From Hirudinaria manillensis (lineage: Eukaryota; Annelida; Clitellata; Hirudinida; Hirudinidae): a stretch of DNA of 64,000 nucleotides. The notes under the pieces are model-generated. The model did not search any database, was not told the DNA's origin, and saw nothing but the letters and a program-made list of their open reading frames with translations. Location of the stretch: the NCBI GenBank assembly GCA_034509925.1, contig CM067533.1, positions 4,092,035-4,156,034 of the forward strand, in the 5' to 3' direction. Shown in pieces: positions 1 through 43,356 of this stretch (position 1 is the stretch's first letter; each line of letters starts with the position of its first letter). A program made the position numbers and the translations under genes.

Positions 1-113
1 TTTCGTACGACTATGCGGTCGTATTTTTCGGAGCCAGCACGCTTGTCCACAGTGCACGACTCAACCGGAACGCCATCCATTTGCAGAAGGAGAACGAAAT
101 CGTCTTGGCTCAT
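1..113 (-). CDS. Array gene, 5' end only (cut by window edge)
   Basis: This is the first 37 codons and two further bases of the copy that runs off the left edge; its ATG is at 113-111. Its promoter is complete, with the TATA box at 216-224 and the E-box at 268-273. It is identical to the same part of the complete copies. Confidence 0.85.
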   Translation of the reverse strand, partial: MSQDDFVLLLQMDGVPVESCTVDKRAGSEKYDRIVVR

Positions 114-277
114 TTTCAAAGATCGATCAAAAATATTAACGCAAACGCTCTCCGAATATTACACCCGTCAGCTGCGCCGTCCGAACCAATAATGACGACT
201 CTATCGAAATTCCCACTTTTATAGACTTAGAACAATAGAGGGGCGGAGCTTGCGAGCGCGCGCCGCGCACGTGATGA

Positions 278-541
278 CGCGTATATAAATATACATTTAT
301 TTATTGTAATTTTCGTTATTAATTATTTCGTAATAAATATCGAATTGCCGTATTGTAATAAACAAATAAATATTTATTAATAAATTAATTATTTTATTTT
401 TATATTTTATTAATTAATTTATTATTTATTTAATTTATATACCGAGGCTCATAGTAAAAAAAAAGAGAGTTTTTTTTTTTAGATTATTTATATTTGTATA
501 TGAAATCTAATAGAAAAAAATAAATAAAAAAAAATTCTCCT
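278..541 (-). other. AT-rich 3' spacer of an array unit (representative)
   Basis: This stretch is almost entirely A and T. It is built of runs such as TTATTAATAAATTAATT, followed by an A-run, a short GAGAG, a T-run and a hairpin next to the stop codon. Read on the minus strand it lies 3' of the gene and contains several AATAAA hexamers usable as poly(A) signals. It equally lies upstream of the promoter of the neighbouring unit. All unit-to-unit variation that I can see falls here. Such DNA is a typical target for AT-hook proteins and for matrix attachment, but neither is shown here. Confidence 0.8.
479..510 (-). other. Conserved inverted repeat just 3' of the array gene
   Basis: TTAGAT at 479-484 and ATCTAA at 505-510 are perfect complements around a 20-nt AT-rich loop. 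The stem is flanked by a T-run on one side and an A-run on the other, which could extend the pairing. It lies about 30-60 nt downstream of the stop codon on the transcribed strand and recurs in every unit. It may be a 3'-UTR hairpin. It is not the histone-type hairpin. Confidence 0.5.
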
Positions 542-1837
542 TTAATCTTCGGGGGAGACGTCGAACTCTACCCCGCATTTCGCTGCGAGCCTCACGAGTT
601 TCTTGAAGGTCTGCTGGATCCACGGGGCGTTGCCGAGGCAACCTTCCACGATCGAAAGGCTGTCGGACTTTTTGGAAGTCTGGTACCTGACTTCGTCGTT
701 CGACTGAAGGAAGGTTTCATATTTAAAATGCTTTCCACCATGATAGGCGAGCATCGGTCCGAGCGCCTGCTCGCTCACCAGGTAGGCGACCCTTTCGAAT
801 GAATTTGACAGCTTGGCCAGAGTCTTCGGGTCGTATTTTGGACCGCTGAGAGTTAGAACCCTGGTGGCCGGCGCGCTCTTGGTCACCTCGCACTGAGGAT
901 TGAATCTTTTATCCATTTTATCTATCTCTTCCACTCTGAAAAAGGGCAGTCGGTCGAGGGAATCGACGACTTTCTCGTCCCAACAAACCCTCGATATCAC
1001 CAACCTCCGGCATTCCGAAAGCAGATAGTCAATCTGCTCCAACGAGCTGGCGAAGTAGCTATGAGTTTGGGCTTTATCCAAGAACGAAGAGTCCATATTT
1101 TGACTCAACAGACTCTGTATGTATACTTTGAACAAATGAAGTAGTTGGCCGCCCTCCAACTCCTCGTCTATTTTCGGTGGCAGAGATCCCTTCGTTAGTT
1201 TTACAACCTCGGGAGTTTTGCCCCTAGACGTCAAAACGTCGACCTCGACGTGCCTGAAGCTGGTCGCCAAACTATTCATGTCCTTGTAGGCCGAAAATCT
1301 CGAAGAACCTTCGTGCAGCGTCACGTCTCCTCTCTTGATCGGTTCGAATCTTTTTAGCATATTTCCCAAAGAGACGAGATATAAGGGAAACGGTGCATCG
1401 GCGCAGTAAGCGTCCTTTGCCGCAACGAAGTCTCCTACTTCGAGAAGGTGTGGTTCGTTCGAATCGATAGGACGCGGGCGAATTGGCTTCGGAGACGAGA
1501 AATTTGAGACCGACTTGTCCGACGATTCATTTGCTCTCGATTGATACGGAGAAAGTCTGGGTCTGCCTCGTCCTCTTTTCACGGGCTTTCCGGCAGTAGC
1601 TTCTTTTTCAAATCCGGCCGGACATTGGTTAGGGTTGATCTTTTTAACGGCATTAGAGGTTTCCTCGACGACGGTGCCAGTGCTTCTGTCGTACAGGAAA
1701 CTATCTGCAACGCTGCCGTCAGCATTTCGTACGACTATGCGGTCGTATTTTTCGGAGCCAGCACGCTTGTCCACAGTGCACGACTCAACCGGAACGCCAT
1801 CCATTTGCAGAAGGAGAACGAAATCGTCTTGGCTCAT
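542..1837 (-). CDS. Array unit 1: AT-hook protein of unknown function, 431 aa
   Basis: I recognise no family for this protein. The start is the ATG at 1837-1835, with A at -3; the frame extends two codons further only through a TTG, which a eukaryote would not use. Visible in order: an acidic, compact N-terminus; an AT-hook KRGRGRPR at residues 87-94, followed by a Ser/Pro/Arg-rich linker to about 125; VGDFVAAK at 134-141, opening a stretch that could be a PWWP/Tudor-like barrel (weak); and a helix-rich, charged C-terminal half with no signal peptide or membrane segment. The AT-hook implies minor-groove binding to A/T runs in the nucleus. The gene is intronless and has its own Pol II-type promoter. 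The base composition is visibly GC- and CpG-richer than the flanking genome. Identity of the protein in 25 copies, with no broken copy among them, argues that it is expressed and selected, or amplified very recently. Chromatin or DNA-binding roles are inference. Confidence 0.85.
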   Translation of the reverse strand: MSQDDFVLLLQMDGVPVESCTVDKRAGSEKYDRIVVRNADGSVADSFLYDRSTGTVVEETSNAVKKINPNQCPAGFEKEATAGKPVKRGRGRPRLSPYQSRANESSDKSVSNFSSPKPIRPRPIDSNEPHLLEVGDFVAAKDAYCADAPFPLYLVSLGNMLKRFEPIKRGDVTLHEGSSRFSAYKDMNSLATSFRHVEVDVLTSRGKTPEVVKLTKGSLPPKIDEELEGGQLLHLFKVYIQSLLSQNMDSSFLDKAQTHSYFASSLEQIDYLLSECRRLVISRVCWDEKVVDSLDRLPFFRVEEIDKMDKRFNPQCEVTKSAPATRVLTLSGPKYDPKTLAKLSNSFERVAYLVSEQALGPMLAYHGGKHFKYETFLQSNDEVRYQTSKKSDSLSIVEGCLGNAPWIQQTFKKLVRLAAKCGVEFDVSPED

Positions 1838-2001
1838 TTTCAAAGATCGATCAAAAATATTAACGCAAACGCTCTCCGAATATTACACCCGTCAGCTGCG
1901 CCGTCCGAACCAATAATGACGACTCTATCGAAATTCCCACTTTTATAGACTTAGAACAATAGAGGGGCGGAGCTTGCGAGCGCGCGCCGCGCACGTGATG
2001 A
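1838..2001 (-). promoter_or_regulatory. Core promoter of the array gene (representative copy)
   Basis: On the minus strand a CTATAAAAG TATA box lies at 1948-1940. An initiator-like TCATTA places the predicted start at about 1917, 30 bp downstream of the TATA box, giving an 80-nt leader. A GC box (GGGGCGG on the plus strand, 1964-1970) and a perfect CACGTG E-box (1992-1997) lie upstream. A short CpG-rich alternating stretch, CGCGCGCCGCGC, lies between them. The same layout occurs at the same offsets in every unit. The sites were read by eye and no factor binding is known. Confidence 0.7.
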
Positions 2002-2005
2002 CGCG

Positions 2006-2015
2006 TATATAAATA
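2006..2015 (+). promoter_or_regulatory. Opposite-strand TATA-like motif beside the E-box
   Basis: TATATAAATA on the plus strand starts nine bases beyond the E-box and points away from the array gene into the spacer. It recurs in every unit. It could support divergent transcription, or it may simply be the start of the AT-rich spacer. Confidence 0.25.
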
Positions 2016-2265
2016 TACATTTATTTATTGTAATTTTCGTTATTAATTATTTCGTAATAAATATCGAATTGCCGTATTGTAATAAACAAATAAATATTTA
2101 TTAATAAATTAATTATTTTATTTTTATATTTTATTAATTAATTTATTATTTATTTAATTTATATACCGAGGCTCATAGTAAAAAAAAAGAGAGTTTTTTT
2201 TTTTAGATTATTTATATTTGTATATGAAATCTAATAGAAAAAAATAAATAAAAAAACATTCTCCT

Positions 2266-3561
2266 TTAATCTTCGGGGGAGACGTCGAACTCTACCCCGC
2301 ATTTCGCTGCGAGCCTCACGAGTTTCTTGAAGGTCTGCTGGATCCACGGGGCGTTGCCGAGGCAACCTTCCACGATCGAAAGGCTGTCGGACTTTTTGGA
2401 AGTCTGGTACCTGACTTCGTCGTTCGACTGAAGGAAGGTTTCATATTTAAAATGCTTTCCACCATGATAGGCGAGCATCGGTCCGAGCGCCTGCTCGCTC
2501 ACCAGGTAGGCGACCCTTTCGAATGAATTTGACAGCTTGGCCAGAGTCTTCGGGTCGTATTTTGGACCGCTGAGAGTTAGAACCCTGGTGGCCGGCGCGC
2601 TCTTGGTCACCTCGCACTGAGGATTGAATCTTTTATCCATTTTATCTATCTCTTCCACTCTGAAAAAGGGCAGTCGGTCGAGGGAATCGACGACTTTCTC
2701 GTCCCAACAAACCCTCGATATCACCAACCTCCGGCATTCCGAAAGCAGATAGTCAATCTGCTCCAACGAGCTGGCGAAGTAGCTATGAGTTTGGGCTTTA
2801 TCCAAGAACGAAGAGTCCATATTTTGACTCAACAGACTCTGTATGTATACTTTGAACAAATGAAGTAGTTGGCCGCCCTCCAACTCCTCGTCTATTTTCG
2901 GTGGCAGAGATCCCTTCGTTAGTTTTACAACCTCGGGAGTTTTGCCCCTAGACGTCAAAACGTCGACCTCGACGTGCCTGAAGCTGGTCGCCAAACTATT
3001 CATGTCCTTGTAGGCCGAAAATCTCGAAGAACCTTCGTGCAGCGTCACGTCTCCTCTCTTGATCGGTTCGAATCTTTTTAGCATATTTCCCAAAGAGACG
3101 AGATATAAGGGAAACGGTGCATCGGCGCAGTAAGCGTCCTTTGCCGCAACGAAGTCTCCTACTTCGAGAAGGTGTGGTTCGTTCGAATCGATAGGACGCG
3201 GGCGAATTGGCTTCGGAGACGAGAAATTTGAGACCGACTTGTCCGACGATTCATTTGCTCTCGATTGATACGGAGAAAGTCTGGGTCTGCCTCGTCCTCT
3301 TTTCACGGGCTTTCCGGCAGTAGCTTCTTTTTCAAATCCGGCCGGACATTGGTTAGGGTTGATCTTTTTAACGGCATTAGAGGTTTCCTCGACGACGGTG
3401 CCAGTGCTTCTGTCGTACAGGAAACTATCTGCAACGCTGCCGTCAGCATTTCGTACGACTATGCGGTCGTATTTTTCGGAGCCAGCACGCTTGTCCACAG
3501 TGCACGACTCAACCGGAACGCCATCCATTTGCAGAAGGAGAACGAAATCGTCTTGGCTCAT
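2266..3561 (-). CDS. Array unit 2: AT-hook protein, 431 aa
   Basis: Protein identical to unit 1. Step from unit 1 is 1,724 bp. The 3' spacer ends ACATTCTCC before the stop codon (C type). Confidence 0.85.
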   Translation of the reverse strand: MSQDDFVLLLQMDGVPVESCTVDKRAGSEKYDRIVVRNADGSVADSFLYDRSTGTVVEETSNAVKKINPNQCPAGFEKEATAGKPVKRGRGRPRLSPYQSRANESSDKSVSNFSSPKPIRPRPIDSNEPHLLEVGDFVAAKDAYCADAPFPLYLVSLGNMLKRFEPIKRGDVTLHEGSSRFSAYKDMNSLATSFRHVEVDVLTSRGKTPEVVKLTKGSLPPKIDEELEGGQLLHLFKVYIQSLLSQNMDSSFLDKAQTHSYFASSLEQIDYLLSECRRLVISRVCWDEKVVDSLDRLPFFRVEEIDKMDKRFNPQCEVTKSAPATRVLTLSGPKYDPKTLAKLSNSFERVAYLVSEQALGPMLAYHGGKHFKYETFLQSNDEVRYQTSKKSDSLSIVEGCLGNAPWIQQTFKKLVRLAAKCGVEFDVSPED

Positions 3562-3989
3562 TTTCAAAGATCGATCAAAAATATTAACGCAAACGCTCTC
3601 CGAATATTACACCCGTCAGCTGCGCCGTCCGAACCAATAATGACGACTCTATCGAAATTCCCACTTTTATAGACTTAGAACAATAGAGGGGCGGAGCTTG
3701 CGAGCGCGCGCCGCGCACGTGATGACGCGTATATAAATATACATTTATTTATTGTAATTTTCGTTATTAATTATTTCGTAATAAATATCGAATTGCCGTA
3801 TTGTAATAAACAAATAAATATTTATTAATAAATTAATTATTTTATTTTTATATTTTATTAATTAATTTATTATTTATTTAATTTATATACCGAGGCTCAT
3901 AGTAAAAAAAAAGAGAGTTTTTTTTTTTAGATTATTTATATTTGTATATGAAATCTAATAGAAAAAAATAAATAAAAAAAAATTCTCCT

Positions 3990-5285
3990 TTAATCTTCGG
4001 GGGAGACGTCGAACTCTACCCCGCATTTCGCTGCGAGCCTCACGAGTTTCTTGAAGGTCTGCTGGATCCACGGGGCGTTGCCGAGGCAACCTTCCACGAT
4101 CGAAAGGCTGTCGGACTTTTTGGAAGTCTGGTACCTGACTTCGTCGTTCGACTGAAGGAAGGTTTCATATTTAAAATGCTTTCCACCATGATAGGCGAGC
4201 ATCGGTCCGAGCGCCTGCTCGCTCACCAGGTAGGCGACCCTTTCGAATGAATTTGACAGCTTGGCCAGAGTCTTCGGGTCGTATTTTGGACCGCTGAGAG
4301 TTAGAACCCTGGTGGCCGGCGCGCTCTTGGTCACCTCGCACTGAGGATTGAATCTTTTATCCATTTTATCTATCTCTTCCACTCTGAAAAAGGGCAGTCG
4401 GTCGAGGGAATCGACGACTTTCTCGTCCCAACAAACCCTCGATATCACCAACCTCCGGCATTCCGAAAGCAGATAGTCAATCTGCTCCAACGAGCTGGCG
4501 AAGTAGCTATGAGTTTGGGCTTTATCCAAGAACGAAGAGTCCATATTTTGACTCAACAGACTCTGTATGTATACTTTGAACAAATGAAGTAGTTGGCCGC
4601 CCTCCAACTCCTCGTCTATTTTCGGTGGCAGAGATCCCTTCGTTAGTTTTACAACCTCGGGAGTTTTGCCCCTAGACGTCAAAACGTCGACCTCGACGTG
4701 CCTGAAGCTGGTCGCCAAACTATTCATGTCCTTGTAGGCCGAAAATCTCGAAGAACCTTCGTGCAGCGTCACGTCTCCTCTCTTGATCGGTTCGAATCTT
4801 TTTAGCATATTTCCCAAAGAGACGAGATATAAGGGAAACGGTGCATCGGCGCAGTAAGCGTCCTTTGCCGCAACGAAGTCTCCTACTTCGAGAAGGTGTG
4901 GTTCGTTCGAATCGATAGGACGCGGGCGAATTGGCTTCGGAGACGAGAAATTTGAGACCGACTTGTCCGACGATTCATTTGCTCTCGATTGATACGGAGA
5001 AAGTCTGGGTCTGCCTCGTCCTCTTTTCACGGGCTTTCCGGCAGTAGCTTCTTTTTCAAATCCGGCCGGACATTGGTTAGGGTTGATCTTTTTAACGGCA
5101 TTAGAGGTTTCCTCGACGACGGTGCCAGTGCTTCTGTCGTACAGGAAACTATCTGCAACGCTGCCGTCAGCATTTCGTACGACTATGCGGTCGTATTTTT
5201 CGGAGCCAGCACGCTTGTCCACAGTGCACGACTCAACCGGAACGCCATCCATTTGCAGAAGGAGAACGAAATCGTCTTGGCTCAT
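3990..5285 (-). CDS. Array unit 3: AT-hook protein, 431 aa
   Basis: Protein identical to unit 1. Step 1,724 bp. The spacer reads AAATTCTCC at the diagnostic site (A type). Confidence 0.85.
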   Translation of the reverse strand: MSQDDFVLLLQMDGVPVESCTVDKRAGSEKYDRIVVRNADGSVADSFLYDRSTGTVVEETSNAVKKINPNQCPAGFEKEATAGKPVKRGRGRPRLSPYQSRANESSDKSVSNFSSPKPIRPRPIDSNEPHLLEVGDFVAAKDAYCADAPFPLYLVSLGNMLKRFEPIKRGDVTLHEGSSRFSAYKDMNSLATSFRHVEVDVLTSRGKTPEVVKLTKGSLPPKIDEELEGGQLLHLFKVYIQSLLSQNMDSSFLDKAQTHSYFASSLEQIDYLLSECRRLVISRVCWDEKVVDSLDRLPFFRVEEIDKMDKRFNPQCEVTKSAPATRVLTLSGPKYDPKTLAKLSNSFERVAYLVSEQALGPMLAYHGGKHFKYETFLQSNDEVRYQTSKKSDSLSIVEGCLGNAPWIQQTFKKLVRLAAKCGVEFDVSPED

Positions 5286-5713
5286 TTTCAAAGATCGATC
5301 AAAAATATTAACGCAAACGCTCTCCGAATATTACACCCGTCAGCTGCGCCGTCCGAACCAATAATGACGACTCTATCGAAATTCCCACTTTTATAGACTT
5401 AGAACAATAGAGGGGCGGAGCTTGCGAGCGCGCGCCGCGCACGTGATGACGCGTATATAAATATACATTTATTTATTGTAATTTTCGTTATTAATTATTT
5501 CGTAATAAATATCGAATTGCCGTATTGTAATAAACAAATAAATATTTATTAATAAATTAATTATTTTATTTTTATATTTTATTAATTAATTTATTATTTA
5601 TTTAATTTATATACCGAGGCTCATAGTAAAAAAAAAGAGAGTTTTTTTTTTTAGATTATTTATATTTGTATATGAAATCTAATAGAAAAAAATAAATAAA
5701 AAAACATTCTCCT

Positions 5714-7009
5714 TTAATCTTCGGGGGAGACGTCGAACTCTACCCCGCATTTCGCTGCGAGCCTCACGAGTTTCTTGAAGGTCTGCTGGATCCACGGGGC
5801 GTTGCCGAGGCAACCTTCCACGATCGAAAGGCTGTCGGACTTTTTGGAAGTCTGGTACCTGACTTCGTCGTTCGACTGAAGGAAGGTTTCATATTTAAAA
5901 TGCTTTCCACCATGATAGGCGAGCATCGGTCCGAGCGCCTGCTCGCTCACCAGGTAGGCGACCCTTTCGAATGAATTTGACAGCTTGGCCAGAGTCTTCG
6001 GGTCGTATTTTGGACCGCTGAGAGTTAGAACCCTGGTGGCCGGCGCGCTCTTGGTCACCTCGCACTGAGGATTGAATCTTTTATCCATTTTATCTATCTC
6101 TTCCACTCTGAAAAAGGGCAGTCGGTCGAGGGAATCGACGACTTTCTCGTCCCAACAAACCCTCGATATCACCAACCTCCGGCATTCCGAAAGCAGATAG
6201 TCAATCTGCTCCAACGAGCTGGCGAAGTAGCTATGAGTTTGGGCTTTATCCAAGAACGAAGAGTCCATATTTTGACTCAACAGACTCTGTATGTATACTT
6301 TGAACAAATGAAGTAGTTGGCCGCCCTCCAACTCCTCGTCTATTTTCGGTGGCAGAGATCCCTTCGTTAGTTTTACAACCTCGGGAGTTTTGCCCCTAGA
6401 CGTCAAAACGTCGACCTCGACGTGCCTGAAGCTGGTCGCCAAACTATTCATGTCCTTGTAGGCCGAAAATCTCGAAGAACCTTCGTGCAGCGTCACGTCT
6501 CCTCTCTTGATCGGTTCGAATCTTTTTAGCATATTTCCCAAAGAGACGAGATATAAGGGAAACGGTGCATCGGCGCAGTAAGCGTCCTTTGCCGCAACGA
6601 AGTCTCCTACTTCGAGAAGGTGTGGTTCGTTCGAATCGATAGGACGCGGGCGAATTGGCTTCGGAGACGAGAAATTTGAGACCGACTTGTCCGACGATTC
6701 ATTTGCTCTCGATTGATACGGAGAAAGTCTGGGTCTGCCTCGTCCTCTTTTCACGGGCTTTCCGGCAGTAGCTTCTTTTTCAAATCCGGCCGGACATTGG
6801 TTAGGGTTGATCTTTTTAACGGCATTAGAGGTTTCCTCGACGACGGTGCCAGTGCTTCTGTCGTACAGGAAACTATCTGCAACGCTGCCGTCAGCATTTC
6901 GTACGACTATGCGGTCGTATTTTTCGGAGCCAGCACGCTTGTCCACAGTGCACGACTCAACCGGAACGCCATCCATTTGCAGAAGGAGAACGAAATCGTC
7001 TTGGCTCAT
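5714..7009 (-). CDS. Array unit 4: AT-hook protein, 431 aa
   Basis: Protein identical to unit 1. Step 1,724 bp. C-type spacer. Confidence 0.85.
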   Translation of the reverse strand: MSQDDFVLLLQMDGVPVESCTVDKRAGSEKYDRIVVRNADGSVADSFLYDRSTGTVVEETSNAVKKINPNQCPAGFEKEATAGKPVKRGRGRPRLSPYQSRANESSDKSVSNFSSPKPIRPRPIDSNEPHLLEVGDFVAAKDAYCADAPFPLYLVSLGNMLKRFEPIKRGDVTLHEGSSRFSAYKDMNSLATSFRHVEVDVLTSRGKTPEVVKLTKGSLPPKIDEELEGGQLLHLFKVYIQSLLSQNMDSSFLDKAQTHSYFASSLEQIDYLLSECRRLVISRVCWDEKVVDSLDRLPFFRVEEIDKMDKRFNPQCEVTKSAPATRVLTLSGPKYDPKTLAKLSNSFERVAYLVSEQALGPMLAYHGGKHFKYETFLQSNDEVRYQTSKKSDSLSIVEGCLGNAPWIQQTFKKLVRLAAKCGVEFDVSPED

Positions 7010-7434
7010 TTTCAAAGATCGATCAAAAATATTAACGCAAACGCTCTCCGAATATTACACCCGTCAGCTGCGCCGTCCGAACCAATAATGACGACTCTAT
7101 CGAAATTCCCACTTTTATAGACTTAGAACAATAGAGGGGCGGAGCTTGCGAGCGCGCGCCGCGCACGTGATGACGCGTATATAAATATACATTTATTTAT
7201 TGTAATTTTCGTTATTAATTATTTCGTAATAAATATCGAATTGCCGTATTGTAATAAACAAATAAATATTTATTAATAAATTAATTATTTTATTTTTATA
7301 TTTTATTAATTAATTTATTATTTATTTAATTTATATACCGAGGCTCATAGTAAAAAAAAAGAGAGTTTTTTTTTTTAGATTATTTATATTTGTATATGAA
7401 ATCTAATAGAAAAAAAAATAAAAAAAATTCTCCT

Positions 7435-8730
7435 TTAATCTTCGGGGGAGACGTCGAACTCTACCCCGCATTTCGCTGCGAGCCTCACGAGTTTCTTGAA
7501 GGTCTGCTGGATCCACGGGGCGTTGCCGAGGCAACCTTCCACGATCGAAAGGCTGTCGGACTTTTTGGAAGTCTGGTACCTGACTTCGTCGTTCGACTGA
7601 AGGAAGGTTTCATATTTAAAATGCTTTCCACCATGATAGGCGAGCATCGGTCCGAGCGCCTGCTCGCTCACCAGGTAGGCGACCCTTTCGAATGAATTTG
7701 ACAGCTTGGCCAGAGTCTTCGGGTCGTATTTTGGACCGCTGAGAGTTAGAACCCTGGTGGCCGGCGCGCTCTTGGTCACCTCGCACTGAGGATTGAATCT
7801 TTTATCCATTTTATCTATCTCTTCCACTCTGAAAAAGGGCAGTCGGTCGAGGGAATCGACGACTTTCTCGTCCCAACAAACCCTCGATATCACCAACCTC
7901 CGGCATTCCGAAAGCAGATAGTCAATCTGCTCCAACGAGCTGGCGAAGTAGCTATGAGTTTGGGCTTTATCCAAGAACGAAGAGTCCATATTTTGACTCA
8001 ACAGACTCTGTATGTATACTTTGAACAAATGAAGTAGTTGGCCGCCCTCCAACTCCTCGTCTATTTTCGGTGGCAGAGATCCCTTCGTTAGTTTTACAAC
8101 CTCGGGAGTTTTGCCCCTAGACGTCAAAACGTCGACCTCGACGTGCCTGAAGCTGGTCGCCAAACTATTCATGTCCTTGTAGGCCGAAAATCTCGAAGAA
8201 CCTTCGTGCAGCGTCACGTCTCCTCTCTTGATCGGTTCGAATCTTTTTAGCATATTTCCCAAAGAGACGAGATATAAGGGAAACGGTGCATCGGCGCAGT
8301 AAGCGTCCTTTGCCGCAACGAAGTCTCCTACTTCGAGAAGGTGTGGTTCGTTCGAATCGATAGGACGCGGGCGAATTGGCTTCGGAGACGAGAAATTTGA
8401 GACCGACTTGTCCGACGATTCATTTGCTCTCGATTGATACGGAGAAAGTCTGGGTCTGCCTCGTCCTCTTTTCACGGGCTTTCCGGCAGTAGCTTCTTTT
8501 TCAAATCCGGCCGGACATTGGTTAGGGTTGATCTTTTTAACGGCATTAGAGGTTTCCTCGACGACGGTGCCAGTGCTTCTGTCGTACAGGAAACTATCTG
8601 CAACGCTGCCGTCAGCATTTCGTACGACTATGCGGTCGTATTTTTCGGAGCCAGCACGCTTGTCCACAGTGCACGACTCAACCGGAACGCCATCCATTTG
8701 CAGAAGGAGAACGAAATCGTCTTGGCTCAT
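7435..8730 (-). CDS. Array unit 5: AT-hook protein, 431 aa
   Basis: Protein identical to unit 1. Step 1,721 bp because one TAAA of the TAAATAAA motif near the stop codon has collapsed into the A-run (around 7410-7430). A-type spacer. The collapse opens a chance plus-strand frame across the stop codon in this unit only. Confidence 0.85.
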   Translation of the reverse strand: MSQDDFVLLLQMDGVPVESCTVDKRAGSEKYDRIVVRNADGSVADSFLYDRSTGTVVEETSNAVKKINPNQCPAGFEKEATAGKPVKRGRGRPRLSPYQSRANESSDKSVSNFSSPKPIRPRPIDSNEPHLLEVGDFVAAKDAYCADAPFPLYLVSLGNMLKRFEPIKRGDVTLHEGSSRFSAYKDMNSLATSFRHVEVDVLTSRGKTPEVVKLTKGSLPPKIDEELEGGQLLHLFKVYIQSLLSQNMDSSFLDKAQTHSYFASSLEQIDYLLSECRRLVISRVCWDEKVVDSLDRLPFFRVEEIDKMDKRFNPQCEVTKSAPATRVLTLSGPKYDPKTLAKLSNSFERVAYLVSEQALGPMLAYHGGKHFKYETFLQSNDEVRYQTSKKSDSLSIVEGCLGNAPWIQQTFKKLVRLAAKCGVEFDVSPED

Positions 8731-9158
8731 TTTCAAAGATCGATCAAAAATATTAACGCAAACGCTCTCCGAATATTACACCCGTCAGCTGCGCCGTCCG
8801 AACCAATAATGACGACTCTATCGAAATTCCCACTTTTATAGACTTAGAACAATAGAGGGGCGGAGCTTGCGAGCGCGCGCCGCGCACGTGATGACGCGTA
8901 TATAAATATACATTTATTTATTGTAATTTTCGTTATTAATTATTTCGTAATAAATATCGAATTGCCGTATTGTAATAAACAAATAAATATTTATTAATAA
9001 ATTAATTATTTTATTTTTATATTTTATTAATTAATTTATTATTTATTTAATTTATATACCGAGGCTCATAGTAAAAAAAAAGAGAGTTTTTTTTTTTAGA
9101 TTATTTATATTTGTATATGAAATCTAATAGAAAAAAATAAATAAAAAAACATTCTCCT

Positions 9159-10454: not shown

Positions 10455-10879
10455 TTTCAAAGATCGATCAAAAATATTAACGCAAACGCTCTCCGAATAT
10501 TACACCCGTCAGCTGCGCCGTCCGAACCAATAATGACGACTCTATCGAAATTCCCACTTTTATAGACTTAGAACAATAGAGGGGCGGAGCTTGCGAGCGC
10601 GCGCCGCGCACGTGATGACGCGTATATAAATATACATTTATTTATTGTAATTTTCGTTATTAATTATTTCGTAATAAATATCGAATTGCCGTATTGTAAT
10701 AAACAAATAAATATTTATTAATAAATTAATTATTTTATTTTTATATTTTATTAATTAATTTATTATTTATTTAATTTATATACCGAGGCTCATAGTAAAA
10801 AAAAAGAGTTTTTTTTTTTAGATTATTTATATTTGTATATGAAATCTAATAGAAAAAAATAAATAAAAAACATTCTCCT

Positions 10880-29406: not shown

Positions 29407-29834
29407 TTTCAAAGATCGATCAAAAATATTAACGCAAACGCTCTCCGAATATTACACCCGTCAGCTGCGCCGTCCGAACCAATAATGACGACTCTATCGA
29501 AATTCCCACTTTTATAGACTTAGAACAATAGAGGGGCGGAGCTTGCGAGCGCGCGCCGCGCACGTGATGACGCGTATATAAATATACATTTATTTATTGT
29601 AATTTTCGTTATTAATTATTTCGTAATAAATATCGAATTGCCGTATTGTAATAAACAAATAAATATTTATTAATAAATTAATTATTTTATTTTTATATTT
29701 TATTAATTAATTTATTATTTATTTAATTTATATACCGAGGCTCATAGTAAAAAAAAAGAGAGTTTTTTTTTTTAGATTATTTATATTTGTATATGAAATC
29801 TAATAGAAAAAAATAAATAAAAAAACATTCTCCT

Positions 29835-32855: not shown

Positions 32856-33283
32856 TTTCAAAGATCGATCAAAAATATTAACGCAAACGCTCTCCGAATA
32901 TTACACCCGTCAGCTGCGCCGTCCGAACCAATAATGACGACTCTATCGAAATTCCCACTTTTATAGACTTAGAACAATAGAGGGGCGGAGCTTGCGAGCG
33001 CGCGCCGCGCACGTGATGACGCGTATATAAATATACATTTATTTATTGTAATTTTCGTTATTAATTATTTCGTAATAAATATCGAATTGCCGTATTGTAA
33101 TAAACAAATAAATATTTATTAATAAATTAATTATTTTATTTTTATATTTTATTAATTAATTTATTATTTATTTAATTTATATACCGAGGCTCATAGTAAA
33201 AAAAAAGAGAGTTTTTTTTTTTAGATTATTTATATTTGTATATGAAATCTAATAGAAAAAAATAAATAAAAAAACATTCTCCT

Positions 33284-34579: not shown

Positions 34580-35007
34580 TTTCAAAGATCGATCAAAAAT
34601 ATTAACGCAAACGCTCTCCGAATATTACACCCGTCAGCTGCGCCGTCCGAACCAATAATGACGACTCTATCGAAATTCCCACTTTTATAGACTTAGAACA
34701 ATAGAGGGGCGGAGCTTGCGAGCGCGCGCCGCGCACGTGATGACGCGTATATAAATATACATTTATTTATTGTAATTTTCGTTATTAATTATTTCGTAAT
34801 AAATATCGAATTGCCGTATTGTAATAAACAAATAAATATTTATTAATAAATTAATTATTTTATTTTTATATTTTATTAATTAATTTATTATTTATTTAAT
34901 TTATATACCGAGGCTCATAGTAAAAAAAAAGAGAGTTTTTTTTTTTAGATTATTTATATTTGTATATGAAATCTAATAGAAAAAAATAAATAAAAAAAAA
35001 TTCTCCT

Positions 35008-36303
35008 TTAATCTTCGGGGGAGACGTCGAACTCTACCCCGCATTTCGCTGCGAGCCTCACGAGTTTCTTGAAGGTCTGCTGGATCCACGGGGCGTTGCC
35101 GAGGCAACCTTCCACGATCGAAAGGCTGTCGGACTTTTTGGAAGTCTGGTACCTGACTTCGTCGTTCGACTGAAGGAAGGTTTCATATTTAAAATGCTTT
35201 CCACCATGATAGGCGAGCATCGGTCCGAGCGCCTGCTCGCTCACCAGGTAGGCGACCCTTTCGAATGAATTTGACAGCTTGGCCAGAGTCTTCGGGTCGT
35301 ATTTTGGACCGCTGAGAGTTAGAACCCTGGTGGCCGGCGCGCTCTTGGTCACCTCGCACTGAGGATTGAATCTTTTATCCATTTTATCTATCTCTTCCAC
35401 TCTGAAAAAGGGCAGTCGGTCGAGGGAATCGACGACTTTCTCGTCCCAACAAACCCTCGATATCACCAACCTCCGGCATTCCGAAAGCAGATAGTCAATC
35501 TGCTCCAACGAGCTGGCGAAGTAGCTATGAGTTTGGGCTTTATCCAAGAACGAAGAGTCCATATTTTGACTCAACAGACTCTGTATGTATACTTTGAACA
35601 AATGAAGTAGTTGGCCGCCCTCCAACTCCTCGTCTATTTTCGGTGGCAGAGATCCCTTCGTTAGTTTTACAACCTCGGGAGTTTTGCCCCTAGACGTCAA
35701 AACGTCGACCTCGACGTGCCTGAAGCTGGTCGCCAAACTATTCATGTCCTTGTAGGCCGAAAATCTCGAAGAACCTTCGTGCAGCGTCACGTCTCCTCTC
35801 TTGATCGGTTCGAATCTTTTTAGCATATTTCCCAAAGAGACGAGATATAAGGGAAACGGTGCATCGGCGCAGTAAGCGTCCTTTGCCGCAACGAAGTCTC
35901 CTACTTCGAGAAGGTGTGGTTCGTTCGAATCGATAGGACGCGGGCGAATTGGCTTCGGAGACGAGAAATTTGAGACCGACTTGTCCGACGATTCATTTGC
36001 TCTCGATTGATACGGAGAAAGTCTGGGTCTGCCTCGTCCTCTTTTCACGGGCTTTCCGGCAGTAGCTTCTTTTTCAAATCCGGCCGGACATTGGTTAGGG
36101 TTGATCTTTTTAACGGCATTAGAGGTTTCCTCGACGACGGTGCCAGTGCTTCTGTCGTACAGGAAACTATCTGCAACGCTGCCGTCAGCATTTCGTACGA
36201 CTATGCGGTCGTATTTTTCGGAGCCAGCACGCTTGTCCACAGTGCACGACTCAACCGGAACGCCATCCATTTGCAGAAGGAGAACGAAATCGTCTTGGCT
36301 CAT
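35008..36303 (-). CDS. Array unit 21: AT-hook protein, 431 aa
   Basis: Protein identical to unit 1. Step 1,724 bp. A type; units 21-25 are all A type. Confidence 0.85.
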   Translation of the reverse strand: MSQDDFVLLLQMDGVPVESCTVDKRAGSEKYDRIVVRNADGSVADSFLYDRSTGTVVEETSNAVKKINPNQCPAGFEKEATAGKPVKRGRGRPRLSPYQSRANESSDKSVSNFSSPKPIRPRPIDSNEPHLLEVGDFVAAKDAYCADAPFPLYLVSLGNMLKRFEPIKRGDVTLHEGSSRFSAYKDMNSLATSFRHVEVDVLTSRGKTPEVVKLTKGSLPPKIDEELEGGQLLHLFKVYIQSLLSQNMDSSFLDKAQTHSYFASSLEQIDYLLSECRRLVISRVCWDEKVVDSLDRLPFFRVEEIDKMDKRFNPQCEVTKSAPATRVLTLSGPKYDPKTLAKLSNSFERVAYLVSEQALGPMLAYHGGKHFKYETFLQSNDEVRYQTSKKSDSLSIVEGCLGNAPWIQQTFKKLVRLAAKCGVEFDVSPED

Positions 36304-36730
36304 TTTCAAAGATCGATCAAAAATATTAACGCAAACGCTCTCCGAATATTACACCCGTCAGCTGCGCCGTCCGAACCAATAATGACGACTCTATCGAAAT
36401 TCCCACTTTTATAGACTTAGAACAATAGAGGGGCGGAGCTTGCGAGCGCGCGCCGCGCACGTGATGACGCGTATATAAATATACATTTATTTATTGTAAT
36501 TTTCGTTATTAATTATTTCGTAATAAATATCGAATTGCCGTATTGTAATAAACAAATAAATATTTATTAATAAATTAATTATTTTATTTTTATATTTTAT
36601 TAATTAATTTATTATTTATTTAATTTATATACCGAGGCTCATAGTAAAAAAAAGAGAGTTTTTTTTTTTAGATTATTTATATTTGTATATGAAATCTAAT
36701 AGAAAAAAATAAATAAAAAAAAATTCTCCT

Positions 36731-38026
36731 TTAATCTTCGGGGGAGACGTCGAACTCTACCCCGCATTTCGCTGCGAGCCTCACGAGTTTCTTGAAGGTC
36801 TGCTGGATCCACGGGGCGTTGCCGAGGCAACCTTCCACGATCGAAAGGCTGTCGGACTTTTTGGAAGTCTGGTACCTGACTTCGTCGTTCGACTGAAGGA
36901 AGGTTTCATATTTAAAATGCTTTCCACCATGATAGGCGAGCATCGGTCCGAGCGCCTGCTCGCTCACCAGGTAGGCGACCCTTTCGAATGAATTTGACAG
37001 CTTGGCCAGAGTCTTCGGGTCGTATTTTGGACCGCTGAGAGTTAGAACCCTGGTGGCCGGCGCGCTCTTGGTCACCTCGCACTGAGGATTGAATCTTTTA
37101 TCCATTTTATCTATCTCTTCCACTCTGAAAAAGGGCAGTCGGTCGAGGGAATCGACGACTTTCTCGTCCCAACAAACCCTCGATATCACCAACCTCCGGC
37201 ATTCCGAAAGCAGATAGTCAATCTGCTCCAACGAGCTGGCGAAGTAGCTATGAGTTTGGGCTTTATCCAAGAACGAAGAGTCCATATTTTGACTCAACAG
37301 ACTCTGTATGTATACTTTGAACAAATGAAGTAGTTGGCCGCCCTCCAACTCCTCGTCTATTTTCGGTGGCAGAGATCCCTTCGTTAGTTTTACAACCTCG
37401 GGAGTTTTGCCCCTAGACGTCAAAACGTCGACCTCGACGTGCCTGAAGCTGGTCGCCAAACTATTCATGTCCTTGTAGGCCGAAAATCTCGAAGAACCTT
37501 CGTGCAGCGTCACGTCTCCTCTCTTGATCGGTTCGAATCTTTTTAGCATATTTCCCAAAGAGACGAGATATAAGGGAAACGGTGCATCGGCGCAGTAAGC
37601 GTCCTTTGCCGCAACGAAGTCTCCTACTTCGAGAAGGTGTGGTTCGTTCGAATCGATAGGACGCGGGCGAATTGGCTTCGGAGACGAGAAATTTGAGACC
37701 GACTTGTCCGACGATTCATTTGCTCTCGATTGATACGGAGAAAGTCTGGGTCTGCCTCGTCCTCTTTTCACGGGCTTTCCGGCAGTAGCTTCTTTTTCAA
37801 ATCCGGCCGGACATTGGTTAGGGTTGATCTTTTTAACGGCATTAGAGGTTTCCTCGACGACGGTGCCAGTGCTTCTGTCGTACAGGAAACTATCTGCAAC
37901 GCTGCCGTCAGCATTTCGTACGACTATGCGGTCGTATTTTTCGGAGCCAGCACGCTTGTCCACAGTGCACGACTCAACCGGAACGCCATCCATTTGCAGA
38001 AGGAGAACGAAATCGTCTTGGCTCAT
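36731..38026 (-). CDS. Array unit 22: AT-hook protein, 431 aa
   Basis: Protein identical to unit 1. Step 1,723 bp: the A-run before GAGAG is one base shorter (about 36645-36652). A type. Confidence 0.85.
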   Translation of the reverse strand: MSQDDFVLLLQMDGVPVESCTVDKRAGSEKYDRIVVRNADGSVADSFLYDRSTGTVVEETSNAVKKINPNQCPAGFEKEATAGKPVKRGRGRPRLSPYQSRANESSDKSVSNFSSPKPIRPRPIDSNEPHLLEVGDFVAAKDAYCADAPFPLYLVSLGNMLKRFEPIKRGDVTLHEGSSRFSAYKDMNSLATSFRHVEVDVLTSRGKTPEVVKLTKGSLPPKIDEELEGGQLLHLFKVYIQSLLSQNMDSSFLDKAQTHSYFASSLEQIDYLLSECRRLVISRVCWDEKVVDSLDRLPFFRVEEIDKMDKRFNPQCEVTKSAPATRVLTLSGPKYDPKTLAKLSNSFERVAYLVSEQALGPMLAYHGGKHFKYETFLQSNDEVRYQTSKKSDSLSIVEGCLGNAPWIQQTFKKLVRLAAKCGVEFDVSPED

Positions 38027-38454
38027 TTTCAAAGATCGATCAAAAATATTAACGCAAACGCTCTCCGAATATTACACCCGTCAGCTGCGCCGTCCGAACC
38101 AATAATGACGACTCTATCGAAATTCCCACTTTTATAGACTTAGAACAATAGAGGGGCGGAGCTTGCGAGCGCGCGCCGCGCACGTGATGACGCGTATATA
38201 AATATACATTTATTTATTGTAATTTTCGTTATTAATTATTTCGTAATAAATATCGAATTGCCGTATTGTAATAAACAAATAAATATTTATTAATAAATTA
38301 ATTATTTTATTTTTATATTTTATTAATTAATTTATTATTTATTTAATTTATATACCGAGGCTCATAGTAAAAAAAAAGAGAGTTTTTTTTTTTAGATTAT
38401 TTATATTTGTATATGAAATCTAATAGAAAAAAATAAATAAAAAAAAATTCTCCT

Positions 38455-39750
38455 TTAATCTTCGGGGGAGACGTCGAACTCTACCCCGCATTTCGCTGCG
38501 AGCCTCACGAGTTTCTTGAAGGTCTGCTGGATCCACGGGGCGTTGCCGAGGCAACCTTCCACGATCGAAAGGCTGTCGGACTTTTTGGAAGTCTGGTACC
38601 TGACTTCGTCGTTCGACTGAAGGAAGGTTTCATATTTAAAATGCTTTCCACCATGATAGGCGAGCATCGGTCCGAGCGCCTGCTCGCTCACCAGGTAGGC
38701 GACCCTTTCGAATGAATTTGACAGCTTGGCCAGAGTCTTCGGGTCGTATTTTGGACCGCTGAGAGTTAGAACCCTGGTGGCCGGCGCGCTCTTGGTCACC
38801 TCGCACTGAGGATTGAATCTTTTATCCATTTTATCTATCTCTTCCACTCTGAAAAAGGGCAGTCGGTCGAGGGAATCGACGACTTTCTCGTCCCAACAAA
38901 CCCTCGATATCACCAACCTCCGGCATTCCGAAAGCAGATAGTCAATCTGCTCCAACGAGCTGGCGAAGTAGCTATGAGTTTGGGCTTTATCCAAGAACGA
39001 AGAGTCCATATTTTGACTCAACAGACTCTGTATGTATACTTTGAACAAATGAAGTAGTTGGCCGCCCTCCAACTCCTCGTCTATTTTCGGTGGCAGAGAT
39101 CCCTTCGTTAGTTTTACAACCTCGGGAGTTTTGCCCCTAGACGTCAAAACGTCGACCTCGACGTGCCTGAAGCTGGTCGCCAAACTATTCATGTCCTTGT
39201 AGGCCGAAAATCTCGAAGAACCTTCGTGCAGCGTCACGTCTCCTCTCTTGATCGGTTCGAATCTTTTTAGCATATTTCCCAAAGAGACGAGATATAAGGG
39301 AAACGGTGCATCGGCGCAGTAAGCGTCCTTTGCCGCAACGAAGTCTCCTACTTCGAGAAGGTGTGGTTCGTTCGAATCGATAGGACGCGGGCGAATTGGC
39401 TTCGGAGACGAGAAATTTGAGACCGACTTGTCCGACGATTCATTTGCTCTCGATTGATACGGAGAAAGTCTGGGTCTGCCTCGTCCTCTTTTCACGGGCT
39501 TTCCGGCAGTAGCTTCTTTTTCAAATCCGGCCGGACATTGGTTAGGGTTGATCTTTTTAACGGCATTAGAGGTTTCCTCGACGACGGTGCCAGTGCTTCT
39601 GTCGTACAGGAAACTATCTGCAACGCTGCCGTCAGCATTTCGTACGACTATGCGGTCGTATTTTTCGGAGCCAGCACGCTTGTCCACAGTGCACGACTCA
39701 ACCGGAACGCCATCCATTTGCAGAAGGAGAACGAAATCGTCTTGGCTCAT
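38455..39750 (-). CDS. Array unit 23: AT-hook protein, 431 aa
   Basis: Protein identical to unit 1. Step 1,724 bp. A-type spacer. Confidence 0.85.
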   Translation of the reverse strand: MSQDDFVLLLQMDGVPVESCTVDKRAGSEKYDRIVVRNADGSVADSFLYDRSTGTVVEETSNAVKKINPNQCPAGFEKEATAGKPVKRGRGRPRLSPYQSRANESSDKSVSNFSSPKPIRPRPIDSNEPHLLEVGDFVAAKDAYCADAPFPLYLVSLGNMLKRFEPIKRGDVTLHEGSSRFSAYKDMNSLATSFRHVEVDVLTSRGKTPEVVKLTKGSLPPKIDEELEGGQLLHLFKVYIQSLLSQNMDSSFLDKAQTHSYFASSLEQIDYLLSECRRLVISRVCWDEKVVDSLDRLPFFRVEEIDKMDKRFNPQCEVTKSAPATRVLTLSGPKYDPKTLAKLSNSFERVAYLVSEQALGPMLAYHGGKHFKYETFLQSNDEVRYQTSKKSDSLSIVEGCLGNAPWIQQTFKKLVRLAAKCGVEFDVSPED

Positions 39751-40178
39751 TTTCAAAGATCGATCAAAAATATTAACGCAAACGCTCTCCGAATATTACA
39801 CCCGTCAGCTGCGCCGTCCGAACCAATAATGACGACTCTATCGAAATTCCCACTTTTATAGACTTAGAACAATAGAGGGGCGGAGCTTGCGAGCGCGCGC
39901 CGCGCACGTGATGACGCGTATATAAATATACATTTATTTATTGTAATTTTCGTTATTAATTATTTCGTAATAAATATCGAATTGCCGTATTGTAATAAAC
40001 AAATAAATATTTATTAATAAATTAATTATTTTATTTTTATATTTTATTAATTAATTTATTATTTATTTAATTTATATACCGAGGCTCATAGTAAAAAAAA
40101 AGAGAGTTTTTTTTTTTAGATTATTTATATTTGTATATGAAATCTAATAGAAAAAAATAAATAAAAAAAAATTCTCCT

Positions 40179-41474
40179 TTAATCTTCGGGGGAGACGTCG
40201 AACTCTACCCCGCATTTCGCTGCGAGCCTCACGAGTTTCTTGAAGGTCTGCTGGATCCACGGGGCGTTGCCGAGGCAACCTTCCACGATCGAAAGGCTGT
40301 CGGACTTTTTGGAAGTCTGGTACCTGACTTCGTCGTTCGACTGAAGGAAGGTTTCATATTTAAAATGCTTTCCACCATGATAGGCGAGCATCGGTCCGAG
40401 CGCCTGCTCGCTCACCAGGTAGGCGACCCTTTCGAATGAATTTGACAGCTTGGCCAGAGTCTTCGGGTCGTATTTTGGACCGCTGAGAGTTAGAACCCTG
40501 GTGGCCGGCGCGCTCTTGGTCACCTCGCACTGAGGATTGAATCTTTTATCCATTTTATCTATCTCTTCCACTCTGAAAAAGGGCAGTCGGTCGAGGGAAT
40601 CGACGACTTTCTCGTCCCAACAAACCCTCGATATCACCAACCTCCGGCATTCCGAAAGCAGATAGTCAATCTGCTCCAACGAGCTGGCGAAGTAGCTATG
40701 AGTTTGGGCTTTATCCAAGAACGAAGAGTCCATATTTTGACTCAACAGACTCTGTATGTATACTTTGAACAAATGAAGTAGTTGGCCGCCCTCCAACTCC
40801 TCGTCTATTTTCGGTGGCAGAGATCCCTTCGTTAGTTTTACAACCTCGGGAGTTTTGCCCCTAGACGTCAAAACGTCGACCTCGACGTGCCTGAAGCTGG
40901 TCGCCAAACTATTCATGTCCTTGTAGGCCGAAAATCTCGAAGAACCTTCGTGCAGCGTCACGTCTCCTCTCTTGATCGGTTCGAATCTTTTTAGCATATT
41001 TCCCAAAGAGACGAGATATAAGGGAAACGGTGCATCGGCGCAGTAAGCGTCCTTTGCCGCAACGAAGTCTCCTACTTCGAGAAGGTGTGGTTCGTTCGAA
41101 TCGATAGGACGCGGGCGAATTGGCTTCGGAGACGAGAAATTTGAGACCGACTTGTCCGACGATTCATTTGCTCTCGATTGATACGGAGAAAGTCTGGGTC
41201 TGCCTCGTCCTCTTTTCACGGGCTTTCCGGCAGTAGCTTCTTTTTCAAATCCGGCCGGACATTGGTTAGGGTTGATCTTTTTAACGGCATTAGAGGTTTC
41301 CTCGACGACGGTGCCAGTGCTTCTGTCGTACAGGAAACTATCTGCAACGCTGCCGTCAGCATTTCGTACGACTATGCGGTCGTATTTTTCGGAGCCAGCA
41401 CGCTTGTCCACAGTGCACGACTCAACCGGAACGCCATCCATTTGCAGAAGGAGAACGAAATCGTCTTGGCTCAT
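40179..41474 (-). CDS. Array unit 24: AT-hook protein, 431 aa
   Basis: Protein identical to unit 1. Step 1,724 bp. A-type spacer. Confidence 0.85.
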   Translation of the reverse strand: MSQDDFVLLLQMDGVPVESCTVDKRAGSEKYDRIVVRNADGSVADSFLYDRSTGTVVEETSNAVKKINPNQCPAGFEKEATAGKPVKRGRGRPRLSPYQSRANESSDKSVSNFSSPKPIRPRPIDSNEPHLLEVGDFVAAKDAYCADAPFPLYLVSLGNMLKRFEPIKRGDVTLHEGSSRFSAYKDMNSLATSFRHVEVDVLTSRGKTPEVVKLTKGSLPPKIDEELEGGQLLHLFKVYIQSLLSQNMDSSFLDKAQTHSYFASSLEQIDYLLSECRRLVISRVCWDEKVVDSLDRLPFFRVEEIDKMDKRFNPQCEVTKSAPATRVLTLSGPKYDPKTLAKLSNSFERVAYLVSEQALGPMLAYHGGKHFKYETFLQSNDEVRYQTSKKSDSLSIVEGCLGNAPWIQQTFKKLVRLAAKCGVEFDVSPED

Positions 41475-41901
41475 TTTCAAAGATCGATCAAAAATATTAA
41501 CGCAAACGCTCTCCGAATATTACACCCGTCAGCTGCGCCGTCCGAACCAATAATGACGACTCTATCGAAATTCCCACTTTTATAGACTTAGAACAATAGA
41601 GGGGCGGAGCTTGCGAGCGCGCGCCGCGCACGTGATGACGCGTATATAAATATACATTTATTTATTGTAATTTTCGTTATTAATTATTTCGTAATAAATA
41701 TCGAATTGCCGTATTGTAATAAACAAATAAATATTTATTAATAAATTAATTATTTTATTTTTATATTTTATTAATTAATTTATTATTTATTTAATTTATA
41801 TACCGAGGCTCATAGTAAAAAAAAAGAGAGTTTTTTTTTTAGATTATTTATATTTGTATATGAAATCTAATAGAAAAAAATAAATAAAAAAAAATTCTCC
41901 T

Positions 41902-43197
41902 TTAATCTTCGGGGGAGACGTCGAACTCTACCCCGCATTTCGCTGCGAGCCTCACGAGTTTCTTGAAGGTCTGCTGGATCCACGGGGCGTTGCCGAGGCA
42001 ACCTTCCACGATCGAAAGGCTGTCGGACTTTTTGGAAGTCTGGTACCTGACTTCGTCGTTCGACTGAAGGAAGGTTTCATATTTAAAATGCTTTCCACCA
42101 TGATAGGCGAGCATCGGTCCGAGCGCCTGCTCGCTCACCAGGTAGGCGACCCTTTCGAATGAATTTGACAGCTTGGCCAGAGTCTTCGGGTCGTATTTTG
42201 GACCGCTGAGAGTTAGAACCCTGGTGGCCGGCGCGCTCTTGGTCACCTCGCACTGAGGATTGAATCTTTTATCCATTTTATCTATCTCTTCCACTCTGAA
42301 AAAGGGCAGTCGGTCGAGGGAATCGACGACTTTCTCGTCCCAACAAACCCTCGATATCACCAACCTCCGGCATTCCGAAAGCAGATAGTCAATCTGCTCC
42401 AACGAGCTGGCGAAGTAGCTATGAGTTTGGGCTTTATCCAAGAACGAAGAGTCCATATTTTGACTCAACAGACTCTGTATGTATACTTTGAACAAATGAA
42501 GTAGTTGGCCGCCCTCCAACTCCTCGTCTATTTTCGGTGGCAGAGATCCCTTCGTTAGTTTTACAACCTCGGGAGTTTTGCCCCTAGACGTCAAAACGTC
42601 GACCTCGACGTGCCTGAAGCTGGTCGCCAAACTATTCATGTCCTTGTAGGCCGAAAATCTCGAAGAACCTTCGTGCAGCGTCACGTCTCCTCTCTTGATC
42701 GGTTCGAATCTTTTTAGCATATTTCCCAAAGAGACGAGATATAAGGGAAACGGTGCATCGGCGCAGTAAGCGTCCTTTGCCGCAACGAAGTCTCCTACTT
42801 CGAGAAGGTGTGGTTCGTTCGAATCGATAGGACGCGGGCGAATTGGCTTCGGAGACGAGAAATTTGAGACCGACTTGTCCGACGATTCATTTGCTCTCGA
42901 TTGATACGGAGAAAGTCTGGGTCTGCCTCGTCCTCTTTTCACGGGCTTTCCGGCAGTAGCTTCTTTTTCAAATCCGGCCGGACATTGGTTAGGGTTGATC
43001 TTTTTAACGGCATTAGAGGTTTCCTCGACGACGGTGCCAGTGCTTCTGTCGTACAGGAAACTATCTGCAACGCTGCCGTCAGCATTTCGTACGACTATGC
43101 GGTCGTATTTTTCGGAGCCAGCACGCTTGTCCACAGTGCACGACTCAACCGGAACGCCATCCATTTGCAGAAGGAGAACGAAATCGTCTTGGCTCAT
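41902..43197 (-). CDS. Array unit 25 (last at the right edge): AT-hook protein, 431 aa
   Basis: Protein identical to unit 1. Step 1,723 bp, with a T-run one base shorter. A type. This is the terminal complete copy. Its coding sequence is intact although the promoter immediately upstream is cut short by the array boundary. Confidence 0.85.
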   Translation of the reverse strand: MSQDDFVLLLQMDGVPVESCTVDKRAGSEKYDRIVVRNADGSVADSFLYDRSTGTVVEETSNAVKKINPNQCPAGFEKEATAGKPVKRGRGRPRLSPYQSRANESSDKSVSNFSSPKPIRPRPIDSNEPHLLEVGDFVAAKDAYCADAPFPLYLVSLGNMLKRFEPIKRGDVTLHEGSSRFSAYKDMNSLATSFRHVEVDVLTSRGKTPEVVKLTKGSLPPKIDEELEGGQLLHLFKVYIQSLLSQNMDSSFLDKAQTHSYFASSLEQIDYLLSECRRLVISRVCWDEKVVDSLDRLPFFRVEEIDKMDKRFNPQCEVTKSAPATRVLTLSGPKYDPKTLAKLSNSFERVAYLVSEQALGPMLAYHGGKHFKYETFLQSNDEVRYQTSKKSDSLSIVEGCLGNAPWIQQTFKKLVRLAAKCGVEFDVSPED

Positions 43198-43356
43198 TTT
43201 CAAAGATCGATCAAAAATATTAACGCAAACGCTCTCCGAATATTACACCCGTCAGCTGCGCCGTCCGAACCAATAATGACGACTCTATCGAAATTCCCAC
43301 TTTTATAGACTTAGAACAATAGAGGGGCGGAGCTTGCGAGAGCGCGCCGCGCACGT
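43198..43356 (-). promoter_or_regulatory. Truncated promoter of the terminal array gene
   Basis: The TATA box (43300-43308) and GC box are kept. One base differs from all other units (GAGAGCGCG in place of GAGCGCGCG at about 43341). The sequence stops inside the E-box: CACGT is followed by ACCTGAC in place of GATGACG. The terminal copy therefore lacks the full CACGTG and everything upstream of it, and may be expressed differently. Confidence 0.7.

Follow-up and report, generated by a model that had tools for sequence, protein, structure and literature searches.

A homogenised tandem array of an intronless DUF4211 gene in Hirudinaria manillensis

Tandem arrays that raise gene dosage and proteins with the domain DUF4211 are each known, but an array of a DUF4211 gene was not found in the titles and abstracts of the literature searched, which covered DUF4211, leech tandem arrays and identical gene copies in annelids. 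Such an array is described here from a 64,000-base stretch of Hirudinaria manillensis DNA (the window, C8:4,092,035-4,156,034), the genome being 148.4 Mb in size and the array lying inside one 10-Mb contig. Large homogenised arrays of protein-coding genes are uncommon outside the histones. The reading that we tentatively place first is that an intronless gene, coding for a short nuclear or chromatin protein of the PRR12/QSER1 type, was amplified for dosage.

The closest described systems are the replication-dependent histone clusters, the Stellate genes of Drosophila and the proteins PRR12 and QSER1. Stellate is reported to consist of units of 1.25 kb in about 12 to 400 copies (PMC9741089). 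PRR12 is described as carrying two AT-hooks and a DUF4211 domain, the latter common to QSER1 (PMC11050278). QSER1 is described as largely disordered, with two folded C-terminal domains, the first mostly of strands and the second mostly helical and named bMERB (PMC13172546); we infer that the second holds DUF4211.

The array and its protein

Within the window lie 25 complete coding sequences (CDSs) on the minus strand, each of 1,296 bp including the stop codon, together with a 26th that is cut by base 1, in units of 1717-1725 bp (mostly 1724). The complete CDSs are identical in 25 of 25 cases at the DNA as well as the protein level, and each unit has one open frame. The sequence-only reading of this stretch, which had described a head-to-tail array of at least 26 identical copies of a single-exon gene with the same protein in 25 complete copies, was right on all of these points. 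The features of the array in window coordinates are:

1..43356, minus strand: right-hand part of the array, one cut and 25 complete copies in units of about 1,724 bp (from the list of open reading frames (ORFs) and the unit alignment)
542, 2266, 3990, 5714, 7435, 9159, 10880, 12604, 14328, 16052, 17776, 19499, 21224, 22948, 24669, 26394, 28111, 29835, 31560, 33284, 35008, 36731, 38455, 40179, 41902, minus strand: low ends of the CDSs (stop-codon side)
542..1837, minus strand: representative CDS of 431 amino acids (aa), a single open frame with its ATG at 1837, identical in 25/25 complete window copies
818..1147, minus strand: DUF4211 domain of the representative copy, aa 231-340 (Pfam; window coordinates by arithmetic)
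1550..1579, minus strand: AT-hook motif KRGRGRPRLS with a G-R-P core, aa 87-96 (from the sequence)

To the left the array reaches about 39 kb beyond the window, so that in full it spans C8:4,053,106-4,135,390 (82,285 bp), its right end being window position 43,356. It contains 45 full-length CDS spans, 44 of them intact; 42 of these 44 encode the same protein and the other two (C8:4,057,437 and C8:4,062,610) carry one amino-acid change, P93L, the sole such variant among intact copies. One full-length copy is frameshifted by a one-base insertion at C8:4,059,155, the copy furthest to the left is truncated, and a non-long-terminal-repeat (non-LTR) retrotransposon has inserted 4.1 kb into one spacer; the absence of broken copies, as first read, thus holds within the window and fails beyond it. 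Each full-length unit is 98.7-100% identical to the reference unit over 1.7 kb, which excludes a chance origin of the array.

An array of this kind could be an assembly artefact, an inflated repeat whose true copy number is much lower. Some homopolymer differences may be read errors, and assemblies often miscount array copies. Against this stand private multi-base indels among units, the unique 4.1-kb insertion inside the array and diverged edge copies at both ends, with both edges resolved inside the 10-Mb contig, and we therefore regard an artefact as very improbable.

The encoded protein matches DUF4211 (Pfam PF13926) at aa 231-340 with an expect value (E) of 2.8e-12 and 47.4 bits against a cut-off of 27. 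This rules out an unknown protein family, and the earlier description of the family as undescribed survives only in that the domain has no assigned function and that arrays of it were not met in the literature searched. The array protein looks like the C-terminal part of PRR12/QSER1 with one AT-hook and a small N-terminal segment, the latter clearly common to two paralogs and weakly to two more (by eye), and is likely to be a DNA-binding nuclear protein. Similar G-R-P motifs are seen by eye in three of the six other complete family members. Among solved structures no convincing relative was found, the best matches having E 0.12 with the protein as query and E 1 with the family profile.

Relatives, homogenisation and selection

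A protein search of the genome gave seven paralogs besides the array, each a single open frame of 435-954 aa, six of them on the same contig as the array:

C8:506779, C8:1131329, C8:1154080, C8:1156134, C8:1159548, C8:3428132 and C6:8590415: DUF4211 paralogs, one open frame each

The ORF at C8:1159548 was seen only in part and the other six are complete, the longest complete paralog listed having 908 aa. DUF4211 scores over the cut-off in six of the seven, C8:1156134 being missing from that search, and a match at E up to 0.05 is present in seven of the eight family members. The closest paralog is single-copy and 43% identical to the array protein. A tree of the C-terminal parts (eight rows, of which one is partial) places C6:8590415 as the sister of the array protein (support 92/95), followed by C8:1131329. 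Short, duplicated ORFs, cysteine-rich and with products that look secreted, border the gene at C8:506779 on either side (C8:502,000-511,999).

About 309 kb from the array, in the opposite orientation, lies a decayed relative (C8:3,743,326-3,744,360), which could be aligned over 1,022 bases. Synonymous differences between it and the array CDS number 68 over 229.7 sites, nonsynonymous ones 104 over 792.3 sites (proportions pS 0.296 and pN 0.131), so that 104 of 172 changes are nonsynonymous where about 78% would be expected (p 5e-7 against neutrality). These counts, which include a few bases aligned by chance inside long gaps, show that the protein was under purifying selection in the past, on at least part of the path since the split from the relic. 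Against the nearest paralog the ratio of nonsynonymous to synonymous rates (dN/dS) is not usable, as dS is saturated. A further 71-bp fragment of the array CDS (98.6% identical) lies at C10:9,318,141-9,318,211, apparently in an intron of what we take to be an HP1BP3-like gene; around it about 40 bp of the host sequence are imperfectly duplicated, as recognised by eye.

These relatives bear on the possibility of a selfish or conflict-driven amplification in the germ line, in which, as with Stellate, copies would gain transmission or escape a silencer and the host would answer with small RNAs. The array gene is a fast-diverging duplicate of a single-copy relative (branch 0.73 vs 0.40, at the 43% identity given above); the decayed inverted copy and the fragment in the apparent C10 intron also count in its favour, and the 1.7-kb unit and about 45 copies resemble the figures reported for Stellate (PMC9741089). 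Past purifying selection, on the other hand, fits a host function, and no suppressor array was seen among the 60 genome matches listed from 61 candidates, those outside the array being paralogs, one relic and one fragment. Leeches are hermaphrodites, and the sex-chromosome-type amplification that the sequence-only reading had offered is for this reason unlikely; likewise a conflict between sex chromosomes is not expected in a probable hermaphrodite. On balance we hold a selfish origin to be rather unlikely and place it third.

Variation within the array was followed in 45 copies of the CDS and in 43 copies of the spacer, the split unit and the last unit being left out of the latter. In the CDS three base positions vary and there is a single indel; counting by hand gives about 14 events for the spacer. 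A rare spacer variant is common to the units at C8:4,066,057 and C8:4,097,748, a 2-bp deletion recurs in those at C8:4,079,825 and C8:4,101,193, and both states of an A/C site are interspersed along the array. The presence of the same rare variants in distant units is the pattern expected of repeated exchange or gene conversion and not of a single block duplication, and it shows that the array has been homogenised.

On a neutral reading dose would be irrelevant: a duplicate with its flanks would have been caught in unequal crossing-over and have grown like a satellite, whether or not its copies are transcribed. The units are so alike that the array must have grown or been homogenised recently, it tolerates one frameshifted and one truncated copy, and its AT-rich spacer may favour exchange, all of which suits this neutral course. 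It sits less well with only one broken copy among 45 full-length ones, with selection on the protein along at least part of its path after the relic diverged, and with a CDS in which CpG is not depleted (observed/expected 1.24). We rate neutral growth as rather unlikely, next in order after an amplification for dose.

Promoters and neighbouring elements

The sequence-only reading gave each copy its own promoter, and a promoter-like spacer is indeed present in each unit, as judged by consensus matches only. In the first complete unit TATAAAA lies about 104 bp upstream of the ATG:

1838..2265, minus strand: spacer, whose low end holds the promoter of the 542-1837 copy and whose high end holds the 3' region of the next copy
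1947-1941, TATAAAA; 1973-1964, GC-box-like GCTCCGCCCC; 1992-1997, CACGTG; 1910, CCAAT on the plus strand: spacer motifs (consensus matches only)

With its TATA element, GC-box-like motif and many CpG dinucleotides this spacer is unlike the regions upstream of the paralogs. For a 203-bp stretch of the promoter, 40 of 40 matches (the best 40 of 47 candidates) lie inside the array, and its capture from elsewhere in the genome is accordingly unsupported. A hidden RNA gene in the unit (5S, small nuclear RNA or histone stem-loop) was also considered and rejected, as the window has no Rfam match at the gathering threshold and the 3' region has a folding z of -0.44.

The observed/expected ratio of CpG is 3.14 in the spacer, higher than in the CDS, and 0.84 and 0.55 in the two flanks. 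The G+C content at third codon positions (GC3) of the array CDS is 0.588, the top value among seven complete family members (0.44-0.53 in the others), the histones being higher still at about 0.74-0.84. The genome encodes the catalytic part of DNMT1; a TET-type match is also present, broken into two pieces of which one contains a TAA. A methylation-related role has been reported for QSER1, and with these matches in the genome a comparable role is conceivable for the array protein.

The paralogs carry a different upstream element. Of the six other family genes that are complete, five have the motif AATATTCAGAATCTTTT, or a close form of it, some 100-280 bp ahead of their ATG. Its 14-letter core is exact in three of these, at 102, 151 and 194 bp, and the near forms in the other two score 12.1 and 18.4, compared with 11.8 for the best of 500 shuffles of the array gene's upstream region. 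The motif is absent upstream of C8:1156134 and of the array gene itself, and a diverged form at the latter is ruled out, as 184 of the 500 shuffles score equally well.

The core ATTCAGAATCTTTT has 465 copies in the genome, against four of a reversed control; many of these are paired 5.2-5.3 kb apart, which implies that copies of a retrotransposon contribute to the excess. At seven motif places, picked by eye and not at random from 100 listed, an ORF starts 97-242 bp downstream in every case. The ORFs encode a CCCH zinc-finger protein, a CPSF100-like protein, a ubiquitin-conjugating enzyme, a THAP-like protein (just below the cut-off) and the gag-protease of an element of the long-terminal-repeat (LTR) type, while two have no Pfam match; behind the CPSF100-like and ubiquitin-conjugating enzyme ORFs a second copy of the motif follows. 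These places point to a single promoter element, shared with a retrotransposon, that would control a class of intronless genes often arranged in tandem.

That family genes (three with an exact and two with a near form) share an upstream motif with a gag-protease ORF counts in favour of selfish amplification, and the lack of the motif at the array gene counts against it. Neutral growth, for its part, gains from the small tandem repeats of other intronless genes that seem to be present, to judge from the motif spacing and from two motif copies in each of three examined places. We attach little credence to a wider scenario in which germ-line-driven, intronless duplicates of chromatin and RNA-processing genes share a 17-bp promoter element with an LTR retrotransposon, and in which a short PRR12/QSER1-type member left that control, gained a TATA promoter and was amplified to more than 40 copies, serving either as a weapon or as a means of raising dose in a conflict within the genome over chromatin.

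The right edge of the array adjoins a broken mobile element:

43355..43395, plus strand: right junction, where a diverged 41-bp unit fragment (95% identical to unit positions 142-182) separates the last unit from the broken retrotransposon
43396..44840, minus strand: broken copy of a non-LTR retrotransposon, end approximate (ORFs 43303-43836 and 44180-44665)

No Pfam match was found for the ORF at 43303-43836. By eye the broken copy resembles the intact element inserted in the array (C8:4,084,824-4,088,959), the comparison being made with the latter's 1,215-aa reverse-transcriptase ORF (RVT_1, zf-RVT). The intact ORF has a C2H2-like finger at its N-terminus (by eye), and 168-bp direct repeats lie at both ends of the element. 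Its first 301 bp are matched in full at 99-100% in at least 17 other places (among the best 40 of 503 candidates), and head-to-tail copies with a period of 3,972 bp are present on C4 and C2.

Elsewhere in the genome, a nuclear contig matches cox1 at C9:3,026,446-3,027,786 with a score equal to that of the mitochondrial contig, whose nine in-frame TGA codons it shares; either mitochondrial DNA was recently copied into the nucleus or this is a mis-join. The mitochondrial contig itself (15,581 bases, code 5) has its recognised genes on one strand in the incomplete order cox1, cox2, cox3, tRNA-Gln, nad6, cytb, ..., nad4, ..., nad1, nad3, nad2, which we take to be the annelid ground plan. A bacterial-looking cytosine methyltransferase ORF at C20:47,653-48,777, on a 71-kb contig, comes perhaps from a symbiont or contaminant. 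A match to the hirudin family scores 33.9 bits (cut-off 25), but it extends over 26 of the 64 positions and its stretch contains a TAG. Like the mitochondrial gene order, this match fits a leech.

Dosage and comparison with known systems

The histone quintets of this genome form a cluster of about 9 units of about 5.06 kb each at C10:5,454,217-5,499,071 (by arithmetic, with the cluster edges checked). These units are 97.8-99.7% alike over the stretches compared, as against 98.7-100% for whole units of the array. Full-length H3-type genes number 13 among the matches listed from 61 scored candidates, including four outside the cluster (one on C3, three on C2), so that the array has about five times as many units as there are quintets and about three times as many as there are H3-type genes among those matches.

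If the array serves dosage, unequal exchange and gene conversion would keep the roughly 45 units alike, and their many promoters, working in parallel, could deliver a short burst of a DNA- or chromatin-binding protein. The burst might be timed at fast nuclear division or repackaging, in the early embryo or the germ line; the AT-hook would place the protein on AT-rich DNA and the DUF4211 part would recruit partners. Intactness of 44 of 45 CDSs, DUF4211 over its cut-off, undepleted CpG in the CDS, high GC3 and the recurring rare variants tilt towards this reading, and past selection on the protein, the promoter in each unit and the comparison with the histones tilt likewise towards use.

Several observations weigh on the other side. 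Had the array expanded recently from a single intact copy, its CDSs would be just as intact with no need for dose, and intactness alone proves little where an array is young or freshly homogenised. With every kind of event included, variability is lower in the CDS than in the spacer (4/1296 vs about 14/428 by hand count, p 3e-6). For substitutions taken alone, however, the two do not differ (3/1296 vs 3/428 by hand count, p 0.17), and the spacer's excess can reflect slippage in AT tracts, so that selection within the array is unsupported. P93L removes the core proline of the AT-hook in the two intact copies that carry it, and the Pfam AT_hook score of 8.9 bits falls under the cut-off of 17.4. 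The protein, with an isoelectric point (pI) of 7.0 and a neutral net charge, is unlike a packaging protein; a histone-type 3' stem-loop was not found: Rfam has no match in the window at its gathering threshold, and shuffled sequence folds just as well as the 3' region (z -0.44). The neutral pI and the lack of a histone 3' end hold back the reading as an amplification for dose. It nevertheless leads our ranking, ahead of neutral growth, then selfish amplification and, far below, an artefact, with some weight left for unlisted readings.

If the array is used for dosage, it offers a handle on DUF4211, a domain without a known function, and about 45 units beside about 9 histone quintets would point to a bulk role in chromatin. 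Should the array instead be selfish, a probable hermaphrodite would harbour a counterpart of Stellate, with sex-chromosome conflict excluded as its cause.

Like the replication-dependent histone clusters, the array is tandem, intronless and homogenised, with a promoter-like spacer for each gene; it differs from them in having one gene per unit, in numbering about 45 units against about 9 quintets, in a 3' region where no stem-loop was found and in a protein that is not basic. From Stellate it differs in that the animal bearing it presumably has no sex chromosomes, that its gene encodes a DUF4211 and not a CK2-beta-like protein, and that no suppressor array occurs among the matches listed. It is like Stellate in being a tandem array of a diverged duplicate with a similar unit size and copy number (PMC9741089). 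With PRR12 and QSER1 the array protein shares a DUF4211 domain in the C-terminal half, ahead of which lies a candidate AT-hook motif that scores below the Pfam cut-off, whereas at 431 aa it is without their very long disordered N-terminus, and its gene is a single open frame present in more than 40 tandem copies.

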